This document shows positions 44,691 to 53,029 of a DNA stretch of 60,705 nt, one piece after another (within the stretch, counting starts at the first letter, position 1; each line of letters opens with the position of its first letter). Source of the DNA: Syntrophomonadaceae bacterium (GTDB taxonomy: Bacteria; Bacillota; Syntrophomonadia; Syntrophomonadales; Syntrophothermaceae); the NCBI GenBank assembly GCA_012719535.1, contig JAAYAC010000084.1, forward strand, positions 1 through 60,705. Direction: 5' to 3'. Made by a program: the position numbers and the translations under genes. The notes under the pieces were generated by a model. It was not told where the DNA came from, made no database searches, and was given only the letters and a program-made list of their open reading frames with translations.

Positions 44691-47300
44691 TTACTTGGCT
44701 TTGGCATTCCTTTCCTTACGAGGTGCCAGGTTTTCCTGCCAGCGGTATAAGATCTGCAACGCTTCCACTGGTTTCAATTCATCCAGGTCCAGCGCCCTCA
44801 GTTCGTCCAAGAACGCCCCTTCTTCCGGGAAAAGGTTCAACTGGGTGACTTTGCGCTGCAGGCGGGGAGCCATACCCCGTTCACTTTCCAACTGGCGCAG
44901 CACATCTTCGGCTCTCCTGATGACCTGGGGCGGGATTCCCGCCAGGCTGGCCACATGAAGGCCGTAACTCTTGTCCGCCCGGCCGGGCAGGACTTTCTTC
45001 AAAAAGACTACTTCATTCCCACTCTCCTTTACGGAGACCGACAGGTTGACGATACCCGGCATCTCACCGGCCAGGCTGGTCAGCTCATGGTAATGGGTGG
45101 CAAAGAGGGTTTTGGCTCCGATATGGCGACAGATATGCTCCATTACCGCCCGGGCAATACTCATTCCGTCAAAAGTGCTCGTACCCCGCCCGATCTCGTC
45201 CAGGACAATCAGACTGCGCGCGGTGGCGTGGCGGAGTATGCGGGCCACCTCCACCATTTCCACCATGAAGGTGCTCTGCCCGCCGGCCAGGTCATCAGCA
45301 GCCCCTACCCGGGTAAAGATCTGATCGAGGACCCCGATACTGGCCTCACTGGCGGGGACAAAGCTGCCCATTTGTGCCAGTATGGCTATCAGGGCCACCT
45401 GGCGCATGTACGTGCTCTTCCCCCCCATGTTAGGCCCCGTGATTATGGCATAGCGCTGGCCTGCGTTGTCCAGGTGGGTGTCGTTGGGGACAAACCTTTC
45501 TTCAGTAAGAAATTTCTCAACCACCGGGTGACGGCCGCCCCTGATATGTATGCGGTCCGCCTCATCGACTACCGGCCGCACATAGTCGAAGCGAAAAGCA
45601 GTCTCGGCCAGGCAAGCCAGGACATCCAGCCGGGCCAGGGCCGCAGCTATCGCCTGTAGCCGGGGAATGTGCCGGGCCAGTTCCTCCCGTATGCCCTGAA
45701 AGACCTCATACTCGAGGGCATACAACTTCTCCCGCGCTCCCAGTATTTTATCCTCGTAGTTCTTTAGCTCATCGGTAATAAACCTTTCCGCATTGACCAG
45801 CGTCTGTTTGCGCACGTAGTGGGGAGGAACCAGATCCAGGTTGGCCCTGGTTACCTCGATATAGTAGCCAAAGACCTTGTTGAAACCGACTTTCAGGGAT
45901 TTAATGCCCGTTTGCTCCTTCTCCCGCTTCTCAAATTCGAGAAGCCATTCCTTGCCGGCAAACGCCAGTTTCCTCAGCTCGTCCACCTCCGGGTGGTACC
46001 CGGTCTTGATGATGCCCCCTTCCCGGGCGGTAGCCGGCGCCTCGTCATGGATAGCACTGTCCAGCAGGCGGTAAACATCCTGCATATCATCAACGTCCAA
46101 TGCTTCACCCAGATACCGGCTATTTACTTCAGCAGCTAGCGCACAGAGCGCCGGTAAAACCCCAAGAGATACCTTCAGGGCGAGTAGTTCCCGGGGTTGG
46201 ATGGTACCGCTCCCCAGCCTGGCTACCAGCCTCTCCAAATCGTAGACTCCTTTCAGTTCCTGGCGCAGCCTGTCTCTCAGCACCAGGGCTTCCACCAGCT
46301 CTCCTACCGCGTCCAGGCGCTCGTTGATGGCCGCGACGTCCACTAGAGGTTGCTCCAGCCAGGCTTTTAGCAAGCGTTTCCCCATTGAAGTGACGCAGCA
46401 GTCGATAACCGCCAGCAGCGACCCTTCGCGCTTACCGTCCCTGGCATTCCTGGTCAGTTCCAGGTTGCGCCGGGTAGTCACATCCAGAACCAGGTAGTCC
46501 CGGGTGGAGTAGGGTTTCACCTGTTTGATGTGCTGGAGGGGAACCCTTTGAGTGGACTCGAGAAAGGCTAAAATAACCCCGGCGGCGATAACCGCCGCTC
46601 GGTAAGAATCGAGCCCGAGGTCGGCCAGGCAGTCAACTCCGAAGTAATCCTTAAGTTTTTGTTCGGCCCGGACATAATCATAGTAAGCTGGATCAACTTC
46701 GGTGATAACAACCCTCTGATACCGTGAACTGAACTCGTGTATGGCCGACTCTTCACTCTTCCAGGCGGGAACCAGGCATTCGGCAGGACCCAGGCGGTAC
46801 AATTCGCTGAACAGCCAGCCGCGGGCCTCCGCTCCGGTAACCTCCGTCACCCGAAAGTCACCGGTGGATACGTCAATTACCGCCAGCCCAACGGTTTCCG
46901 GGTTCTCCACCAGGGCTACCAGGTAGTTGTTCCGGCCTTCTTCCAACATTATCTCGTCCAGGACCGTTCCCGGAGTAATGACCTTTACCACCTCACGCTT
47001 TACCAGCCCCCTGGCATCGCGCGGGTCCTCCACCTGCTCGCAAATGGCCACCCGGTATCCTTTCTCGATCAGTTTGGCTATGTAGGTGTCGGCCGAGTGG
47101 AAAGGCACCCCGCACATGGGCACCCTCGTATCCCCTCCACCATCGCGGGCGGTTAGTACGATCTCCAACTCCCGGGAAGCCACCTCGGCATCTTCAAAAA
47201 ACATCTCGTAGAAGTCACCCAGGCGAAAGAACAAGATGGCATCACGATACTGCTCCTTGATCGCCCGGTACTGTTCCATCATCGGCGTATACCTTGACAC
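44691..47300 (-). CDS. mutS: DNA mismatch recognition protein MutS
   Basis: 869 residues. The mismatch-contacting FYE motif is in LGDFYEMF (about 26-33), and the ATPase has GPNMGGKST and VLDEIGRGTSTFDG in the last third, followed by the ATHYHEL segment. I chose GTG 47300, which has GGGAGGG six bases upstream and gives the standard length. The frame runs on to 47390 through a repeat element without another ribosome binding site. It is followed by the hydantoinase-like gene, the HDAC-like gene and mutL on the same strand. Confidence 0.97.
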   Translation of the reverse strand: MSRYTPMMEQYRAIKEQYRDAILFFRLGDFYEMFFEDAEVASRELEIVLTARDGGGDTRVPMCGVPFHSADTYIAKLIEKGYRVAICEQVEDPRDARGLVKREVVKVITPGTVLDEIMLEEGRNNYLVALVENPETVGLAVIDVSTGDFRVTEVTGAEARGWLFSELYRLGPAECLVPAWKSEESAIHEFSSRYQRVVITEVDPAYYDYVRAEQKLKDYFGVDCLADLGLDSYRAAVIAAGVILAFLESTQRVPLQHIKQVKPYSTRDYLVLDVTTRRNLELTRNARDGKREGSLLAVIDCCVTSMGKRLLKAWLEQPLVDVAAINERLDAVGELVEALVLRDRLRQELKGVYDLERLVARLGSGTIQPRELLALKVSLGVLPALCALAAEVNSRYLGEALDVDDMQDVYRLLDSAIHDEAPATAREGGIIKTGYHPEVDELRKLAFAGKEWLLEFEKREKEQTGIKSLKVGFNKVFGYYIEVTRANLDLVPPHYVRKQTLVNAERFITDELKNYEDKILGAREKLYALEYEVFQGIREELARHIPRLQAIAAALARLDVLACLAETAFRFDYVRPVVDEADRIHIRGGRHPVVEKFLTEERFVPNDTHLDNAGQRYAIITGPNMGGKSTYMRQVALIAILAQMGSFVPASEASIGVLDQIFTRVGAADDLAGGQSTFMVEMVEVARILRHATARSLIVLDEIGRGTSTFDGMSIARAVMEHICRHIGAKTLFATHYHELTSLAGEMPGIVNLSVSVKESGNEVVFLKKVLPGRADKSYGLHVASLAGIPPQVIRRAEDVLRQLESERGMAPRLQRKVTQLNLFPEEGAFLDELRALDLDELKPVEALQILYRWQENLAPRKERNAKAK

Positions 47301-47336
47301 ACATGGCCCTCCCTGAATAAAGGCTCGACACAAGTG

Positions 47337-47374
47337 CAGGTGTGTCCCCCTACCTCTATACGGGGACATTCCTG
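47337..47374. repeat. 38-base dispersed repeat, REP-like, copy at mutS/miaB
   Basis: This element contains TGTCCCC and GGGGACA as inverted halves. It recurs in reverse orientation at 60348-60385 with a single mismatch. Its first 19 bases recur directly at 47411-47429. The size, internal dyad and intergenic position fit a REP-like element. It falls just upstream of the mutS start, partly replacing normal leader sequence. Confidence 0.75.
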
Positions 47375-47377
47375 CCG

Positions 47378-47402
47378 CCGCCACCGGCAACGCCGGTGGC
47401 GG
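47378..47402. repeat. Perfect GC-rich hairpin inside the repeat cluster
   Basis: An 11-bp perfect stem (CCGCCACCGGC/GCCGGTGGCGG) with an AAC loop sits between the two repeat halves. There is no T-run on either side. Confidence 0.6.
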
Positions 47403-51487: not shown

Positions 51488-52366
51488 TTATAGTCCTCGC
51501 AGGTAATCGGGCCGTAGGAAACGGTTGTCCTGACTGCGCAGGACCCCGTCGAGCAATGCCACTATCTTTTCCCGGTCCCGGCGCAAGGTACCCTTTATGG
51601 GCAGGTAGTTGGACGCATGGTTGCTCCTGAACTCACAGTTATCCACTTCCAGGTTTTCAATCAATACCTTCAGTTCCTGCAGTATCTCGAAGGGTTCAGG
51701 AAGTTCAAACTCCCCCCGCATCATACGACGGTGCAACACAGTTCCGGGCACCAGCATGAGGGTGAGAGCCGCCACGAAATCCGGGTTGATTTCGCTACAG
51801 ATCCTGGCCGTCTCCCGGGCATGTTCCTGAGACCTTTCCCCTTTCCCGGCCAAACCCAACAGGACGGTTACTGACAGCTTTATACCTGACCTCATTACCT
51901 TGCGCCCGGCTTCCACCATTTCCTGGCCCGTAACCCCTTTGTTGATCTCCTTCAGGAGACGCTCATCACCCGTCTCCACCCCCAGGTAAGCAATGGTGAG
52001 CCCTGCCGCGCGTAAAGCCCGCAGCTCCTCATCGGTCTTTTTCAGAATACTCCCGGGGCCGGCGTATATGCCAACATGGCTAAGGCTGGGGAACTGGCGG
52101 CACAGCTCCTTTAGTATCTGTAGCAGGTCACCACTATCCATGGCCAGGGCATCACCGTCAGCCAGGAAAACCTTGTACAAATCACCGTAATACAATTTGG
52201 CCATGCGGATATCAGCCTTGATCTCGTCCAGGGACCTTACCCGGTATTTCTTATCCTTGTACATCCCGCAGAACGTACACTTGTTATGTGAGCATCCGAT
52301 AGTACACTGCAATATATAACTCCGGGCCTCACTGGGAGGCCGATAAACATTCCCCTCGTACCTCAT
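51488..52366 (-). CDS. Radical SAM protein with CX4CX2C spacing
   Basis: 292 residues. The N-terminal cluster reads QCTIGCSHNKCTFCGMY; C25, C30 and C33 give C-x4-C-x2-C instead of the usual C-x3-C-x2-C, with an extra C21 before. The rest follows an Elp3-like radical SAM barrel (GVETGDERLL near 124, LLGLAGKGE near 165). No B12-binding or TRAM domain is present. It lies 20 bases upstream of degV. The substrate is unknown. Confidence 0.85.
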   Translation of the reverse strand: MRYEGNVYRPPSEARSYILQCTIGCSHNKCTFCGMYKDKKYRVRSLDEIKADIRMAKLYYGDLYKVFLADGDALAMDSGDLLQILKELCRQFPSLSHVGIYAGPGSILKKTDEELRALRAAGLTIAYLGVETGDERLLKEINKGVTGQEMVEAGRKVMRSGIKLSVTVLLGLAGKGERSQEHARETARICSEINPDFVAALTLMLVPGTVLHRRMMRGEFELPEPFEILQELKVLIENLEVDNCEFRSNHASNYLPIKGTLRRDREKIVALLDGVLRSQDNRFLRPDYLRGL

Positions 52367-52526
52367 AAAAACACCTCGGGTCCTGGTATTTTGCCTTCTA
52401 TTATCTTACACAAATTTTTTAATTTTGGGAAATAGATTAGCTGGCGTGAAGATTATCCTTGTTTAAGCTGACCAGATTTTTTAAAGACTAATAACGGGGC
52501 GAAGGGGCAAAAAAGGGGGGTTCCAA

Positions 52527-52718
52527 ATGGCAAGAAACCGCGGAATCATGTCTGAACAGTTAAAGTACGAGTTGGCCAGGGAACTGGGAGTTGATCAAAT
52601 CGTGGCCTCCCAGGGTTGGGGCGAGGTAACTGCCCGGAACTGCGGTAACCTCGTCAAGCTGGCCATCGAACGCGCTGAAAGGACCGTGGCCCCGCAGTTT
52701 ACTCCCAACAGGTACTAA
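52527..52718 (+). CDS. Alpha/beta-type small acid-soluble spore protein
   Basis: 63 residues. The germination protease site region LKYELARELGV (13-23) and the DNA-binding segment GEVTARNCGNLVKLAIERAE (32-51) are clear. SASPs saturate spore DNA and protect it, then feed amino acids to the germinating cell. AAGGGGGG precedes ATG 52527 and a terminator follows. It carries a Cys in the conserved region where others have E/Q. A forespore sigma-G promoter is expected; I could not identify one with confidence in 52367-52526. Confidence 0.95.
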   Translation: MARNRGIMSEQLKYELARELGVDQIVASQGWGEVTARNCGNLVKLAIERAERTVAPQFTPNRY

Positions 52719-52728
52719 CCCTCGCCCT

Positions 52729-52760
52729 TGCCAGGGGATTTTCCCCTGGCACTTGTTATT
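52729..52760 (+). terminator. Intrinsic terminator after the SASP gene
   Basis: TGCCAGGGGA/TCCCCTGGCA form a perfect 10-bp stem with a three-T loop, followed by CTTGTTATT. Confidence 0.85.
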
Positions 52761-52775
52761 ACTTACTGTTATAAT
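52746..52775 (+). promoter_or_regulatory. Possible promoter of the DUF1858 selenoprotein gene
   Basis: CTGGCA, an 18-base spacer and a perfect TATAAT end 33 bases before the TTG start. The -35 overlaps the SASP terminator. Confidence 0.45.
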
Positions 52776-52808
52776 TAGCTTGTGATTAAGACTGGGAGGT
52801 GAACTCGC

Positions 52809-53006
52809 TTGATTAATCGGAATACCATCATTAAAGATGTGCTGAAAGAGGTTCCCGGTGCGGATAAGATCTTCCTTAAGCACGGAGTCCATTGTCTGGG
52901 TTGAATGGGCGCTCTCTTTGAGACGGTTGAGCAGGGTGCTCAAATGCATGGCGTGGATGTCGATAAACTCCTCAAAGAACTTAATGAACAAGCTGAAAAG
53001 AAATAA
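52809..53006 (+). CDS. DUF1858 protein, predicted selenoprotein (in-frame TGA = Sec)
   Basis: The frame opens at TTG 52809 with GGGAGGTGA about seven bases upstream and runs 65 codons to TAA 53006, interrupted once by TGA at 52902-52904 (codon 32). DUF1858/hybrid-cluster-associated redox domains carry HCxGC in the middle; here the frame reads HCLG-TGA, so the stop replaces exactly the second Cys of the CxxC pair, giving CLGU. After it the family pattern continues without loss (ETVEQGAQMHGVDVDKLLKEL). A 7-bp hairpin with GGG loop sits 29 bases after the TGA. All points to selenocysteine insertion. A nonsense mutation in a dying gene is the alternative. The likely role is thiol/disulfide-type redox chemistry in the cytosol. 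Confidence 0.8.
52927..52943 (+). promoter_or_regulatory. Putative bacterial SECIS element
   Basis: TTGAGCA and TGCTCAA form a perfect 7-bp stem with loop GGG. The loop begins 29 bases after the TGA at 52902-52904. Bacterial SECIS hairpins have the apical loop about 16-37 bases downstream with a G among its first bases, so distance and loop both fit. Confidence 0.7.
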
Positions 53007-53029
53007 GGGGGCGTGAGCCTCCTTGTTTT
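53005..53029 (+). terminator. Intrinsic terminator after the DUF1858 gene
   Basis: AAGGGGGC/GCCTCCTT form an 8-bp stem (one G-T pair) with a GTGA loop, followed by GTTTTG. It starts within the TAA stop codon. Confidence 0.75.

Follow-up and report, generated by a model that had tools for sequence, protein, structure and literature searches.

A small gene in the window (the complete stretch of 60,705 nucleotides analysed here) codes, with a probability that we put at roughly 95%, for a selenoprotein of the DUF1858 family; its UGA is read as selenocysteine (Sec) via a SECIS hairpin, and the protein most likely works with a Cys-Sec redox couple. The evidence is sequence-based. It comprises the reading frame, the column in which the TGA falls, the Sec machinery, the conservation of the hairpin, purifying selection after the TGA and a shared fold; actual insertion of Sec is what these data predict. 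With a ribosome at the UGA, the hairpin would hold SelB carrying Sec-tRNA-Sec, and Sec would be inserted. The product would then have a Cys-Leu-Gly-Sec pair in a loop of a small helical domain. This pair would most likely be a fast thiol/selenol redox couple forming a reversible Cys-Sec bond, passing electrons to or accepting them from a partner protein or an iron or iron-sulfur site in these anaerobes.

The family as such is not new. DUF1858 (PF08984) with a CxxU motif was listed among the predicted selenoprotein families in 2022 (PMC9312934) and again in 2026 (PMC13188914), with WP_012065717.1 as the example. Judged by the table entries, the domain and the position of Sec (second residue of CxxC) are the same, whereas organism and locus differ. 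A sequence-only reading had proposed a likely new selenoprotein gene. The selenoprotein is supported by the machinery, the shared TGA column and the TGA-specific hairpin; the novelty shrinks to the locus, for the gene is a well-supported member of the already listed DUF1858 CxxU family. The review entry comes without a SECIS comparison; the present work adds the shared GAGCA-GGS-TGCTC hairpin, the clades and the gene neighbourhood. What is gained is a firm selenoprotein call that can be put to the test, for a gene which ordinary annotation would cut short and whose orthologues occur in several of the order's genomes.

Reading frame and product

Direct reading of the sequence reveals a TTG start, a TAA stop (53004-53006) and a single in-frame TGA, which is residue 32 and is preceded by 31 amino acids (Table 1). 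With TGA written as U, the translation is LINRNTIIKDVLKEVPGADKIFLKHGVHCLGUMGALFETVEQGAQMHGVDVDKLLKELNEQAEKK. The TGA had been placed on the second Cys of the CxxC of DUF1858, and there it indeed is. Counting it as a residue, the PF08984 profile yields 64.3 bits (cut-off 32.2); TIGR03980 reaches 77 bits over the whole model (cut-off 44.95). Both CxxC columns are invariant in alignment A1, with U written as C, and the TGA represents the second of them. The source genome, a draft of 2.49 Mb in 203 contigs, contains this one DUF1858 match only.

Compared with seven orthologues, the gene has a pN/pS of 0.31 before the TGA and of 0.35 after it, and the substitutions 3' of the TGA are predominantly synonymous. 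The part beyond the TGA is therefore under selection as a protein.

Of the expression signals that the sequence-only reading had listed, the good ribosome-binding site is present. The plausible promoter and the gene's own terminator fared less well. A single promoter-like match (TATAAT ending at 52775) compares with 1.8 expected from shuffles, and two terminator-like matches, the hairpin just 3' of the gene included, compare with 1.2; neither count is in excess of the shuffles.

Table 1. Features of the selenoprotein gene and its surroundings (window coordinates)
Feature	Position	Strand	Basis
Context: gene of an alpha/beta-type small acid-soluble spore protein (SASP)	52527..52718	+	Conserved synteny in many relatives
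Ribosome-binding site GGGAGG, 9 nt 5' of the TTG start	52794..52799	+	Sequence reading
CDS of the predicted DUF1858/TIGR03980 selenoprotein, 65 aa including one Sec	52809..53006	+	Profiles, same-frame orthologues, pN/pS
TGT codon, partner Cys of the CxxU pair	52893..52895	+	Sequence reading; invariant in alignment A1
UGA codon, predicted to be read as Sec, second position of the pair in HCLGU (CxxU)	52902..52904	+	Same column in 28 genes of the order
Bacterial SECIS-type hairpin TTGAGCA-GGG-TGCTCAA, 7 bp	52927..52943	+	Comparison of TGA genes with Cys genes, synonymous recoding, covariation
Possible weak terminator hairpin 3' of the gene	53006..53024	+	Count not above shuffle expectation

The SECIS-type hairpin

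The hairpin sits inside the codons for a conserved EQGAQ. As had been described from the letters, it has 7 bp and a GGG loop (52934-52936), begins 22 nt after the TGA and presents its loop 29 nt after it. The assignment to the bacterial SECIS range likewise stands. The published model (PMC13188914, Fig. 2) specifies a loop of 3-9 nt with a G in its first two positions, a stem of 4-16 bp, a distance of 16-37 nt from UGA to loop and a minimum free energy of -7.5 kcal/mol or below. The 3-nt loop GGG, the 7 bp and the 29 nt are within these limits; the energy of -7.9 kcal/mol (52922-52948) is so marginally.

On its own, the 59-nt stretch from the TGA onwards shows no unusual folding stability (z -0.69). 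The significance of the hairpin arises from comparison with relatives, not from single-sequence folding. Across these, GAGCA-GG[G/C]-TGCTC is written in the codons for EQGA or EQAA. A stem of at least 5 bp is found in 28 of 32 TGA genes and in none of 37 Cys (CxxC) relatives, all of which are kin and thus not independent samples; in the remaining four TGA genes the stem is shorter or broken. The mean centred stem of the 32 distinct TGA genes is 6.4 bp versus 0.67 under synonymous recoding, and the highest mean among 2000 synonymously redrawn data sets was 1.56 bp. For the window gene by itself, the same recoding gives P=0.007. An outer stem pair covaries (CG, UA, UG and GU; nine two-sided cells), and the structure exceeds all 500 shuffles in paired cells and in covariation score. 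The inner pairs are nearly invariant, with a two-sided change seen at one pair only. In free RNA a longer alternative fold is possible. A ribosome positioned at the UGA would enclose the 5' arm of this fold and so presumably prevent it from forming.

The location of the hairpin in the EQGA/EQAA codons provides a DNA signature that is nearly free of false matches genome-wide. In 399 genomes of the phylum, the pattern TGA-N24-GAGCAGGSTGCTC matched 16 times in 14 genomes, each time in a DUF1858 or ScdA_N-like frame; the reversed control matched once.

Relatives and Sec machinery

The order, i.e., the relatives of Syntrophomonas and Syntrophothermus, is the only one of its class, which means that a class-level search equals the order search. 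DUF1858-type matches occur in 39 of its 63 genomes. Thirty-two matches have exactly one in-frame stop, and this is always TGA: 28 are CxxU genes with the TGA in the window's column, three are UxxC genes and one (L063) is ScdA_N-like. In-frame TAA or TAG is absent from the DUF1858-family matches listed for the order. The comparison with relatives that the earlier reading had suggested thus came out in its favour: the frame is kept and the TGA stays in the same column. In the phylum, the DUF1858 matches listed are mostly without an in-frame stop.

A scan of named genomes with the CxxU alignment found TGA forms in Syntrophomonadaceae, Syntrophothermus, other Bacillota and one Sumerlaeota record, and Cys forms in archaea, Eremiobacterota, Spirochaetes and others. 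A tblastn search of plasmids yielded distant relatives only (<60% identity), mostly annotated as DUF1858. In a tree of 66 proteins, built without the published example WP_012065717.1, the CxxU genes make up one side of a branch with support 99/92, apart from the Cys forms.

A second CxxU lineage (L038, L042, L043, L045, L053 and others) has one residue fewer between Sec and hairpin; its loop follows after 26 nt, not 29, and it has EQAA/GGC in place of EQGA/GGG. Some genomes contain both lineages.

The machinery that the sequence-only reading had proposed to look for (selA, selB, selD and tRNA-Sec) is complete in the source genome. The tRNA-Sec scores 73.2 bits and has the anticodon TCA, selB scores 370 bits, and selD, which has an in-frame TGA of its own, 369 bits. 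The selA frame adjoins selB; it was recognised from its entry in the ORF list and not with a profile. All four are clustered on contig C113 (locus L046). Within the order, 58 of the 63 genomes have a selB match above cut-off.

Neighbourhood

A radical SAM gene, the SASP gene and the selenogene (together 51488-53006 in the window) stay together in many relatives from three families of the order. A terminator-like hairpin of 10 pairs (52729-52751) separates the SASP gene from the selenogene, for which reason we read the arrangement as probably an inherited gene order and not as proof of a role in spores. The immediate neighbours code for the spore protein, the radical SAM protein and germination functions. 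A hybrid cluster protein was not among the five neighbouring genes scanned.

Fold and function

The AlphaFold model, computed from 29 sequences, is a small helical domain with a pLDDT of 93.5. It resembles the solved DUF1858 proteins 2k53 and 2k5e with TM scores of 0.85 and 0.88, respectively, and the N-terminal domain of YtfE with 0.76-0.78; a sequence profile reaches the ScdA chain 9r7j. The Cys form described by TIGR03980, the hybrid cluster protein-associated redox disulfide domain, has its Cys pair in the same columns, whereas the window gene has Sec at the second one. The ScdA_N/DUF542 domain of the RIC proteins (YtfE, ScdA) has the same fold, with a pair of Cys in the equivalent loop. 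In the RIC proteins, however, the two Cys are adjacent, and a C-terminal di-iron hemerythrin-like domain follows that is absent from the window protein.

The literature on these proteins offers some guidance. In RIC proteins the equivalent loop reads DfCCgG; Cys 31 governs oligomerisation and is dispensable for the di-iron site (PMC9268430). The cysteines of ScdA, this pair included, give rise to disulfide-linked oligomers of lower activity, and the authors suggested redox tuning (PMC12412097). A Cys-Sec redox pair is therefore taken as most likely. The product would most likely use thiol/selenol redox chemistry on a fold shared with the N-terminal domain of the iron-centre repair proteins YtfE and ScdA; we infer this role with less certainty than Sec insertion.

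The main rival is a role in handling metals. Sec would still be inserted, yet the Cys-Sec pair would mainly bind a metal, an iron-sulfur or an iron-nitrosyl species for the maintenance of iron centres. The similarity to the YtfE domain and to ScdA 9r7j fits this idea, as does the name of TIGR03980 with its hybrid cluster protein; moreover, RIC proteins serve as iron donors in Fe-S assembly (PMC9268430). On the other hand, the di-iron centre persists in RIC proteins without this domain (PMC9268430), and the immediate neighbours named above do not include genes for Fe-S assembly. We consider metal binding unlikely, if worth keeping in mind, and prefer the redox couple.

Two CxxU relatives are devoid of the partner Cys: L062 (=L116) reads YTGU and L065 (=L090) FGU. 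Both keep TGA and hairpin, that of L062 being reduced to 3 bp. The Cys-Sec couple is therefore not universal, and the mechanism is not fixed.

Alternative readings of the UGA

Any Sec UGA can cause termination when selenium is scarce. The gene might thus be a selenium sensor: without selenium, translation would end after 31 amino acids, and the truncated product or the decay of the mRNA would be what is regulated. Such behaviour is open to every Sec UGA, but the residues beyond the present one are under protein selection and complete the domain, which renders a sensor very improbable.

The frame alone does not tell which residue is inserted, and UGA might be read as another amino acid, be it by code reassignment or by a suppressor. 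This would hardly agree with a tRNA-Sec of anticodon TCA, with TGAs that fall on Cys columns in the DUF1858 genes read, or with a hairpin tied to TGA. Long genes of the window, e.g., the 899-aa ORF at 44691-47390, are also free of TGA under table 11. Code reassignment is rejected on these grounds, and the chance that another residue is inserted is slight indeed.

The shortness of the gene, a draft in 203 contigs and the mostly uninterrupted matches listed for the phylum might suggest that a normal DUF1858 gene of Cys type has just acquired the TGA by nonsense mutation or sequencing error. Independent genomes refute this: 28 genes of the order have TGA in this column, with no other stop type among those listed. 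The selection after the TGA, the TGA-specific hairpin and the conserved neighbourhood likewise leave a pseudogene practically no chance.

Other probable Sec forms of the fold

The comparison and the signature that it yielded pointed to two further Sec forms of this fold that seem to be unlisted. One consists of stand-alone small proteins similar to ScdA_N/DUF542 with a Cys-Sec pair: L063, L120 (=L139) and L133 (=L140) from genomes G028, G173 and G096, with the motifs VSCUGG, VGCUGG and PSCUHG, respectively. Their genes carry a TGA-N24-GAGCAGGCTGCTC hairpin, the same as that of the window. With U written as C, all three score 38.9-39.6 bits against PF04405; reading the genomes as they stand yields 32.3 bits in G173, counted over the cut-off together with neighbours, and 30.7 bits in G096, which is below it.

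The other form is UxxC. In L032, L033 and L034 (genomes G014, G018 and G011) the TGA is at the first Cys of DUF1858, in GMGULGCSG. Setting these genes beside the CxxU ones, which have Sec at the opposite end of the pair, would help to show which residue attacks.

Both forms are absent from the 2026 table, and the terms ScdA and DUF542 do not occur in that review (PMC13188914); they may be known elsewhere. Sec has probably been recruited more than once in one superfamily of small domains, as CxxU, as UxxC and as the C-U of ScdA_N-like proteins. If this is true, the UxxC DUF1858 and the C-U ScdA_N-like forms would be two new selenoprotein subfamilies.

In the tree of 66 proteins, the UxxC genes nest inside a separate clade of Cys type. 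A short UxxC pattern gave one true match in the phylum (G011) and four in frames showing no DUF1858. The 7-bp hairpin of the UxxC genes L032 and L034 has a loop without an early G, and a Cys relative, L029, folds partly alike.
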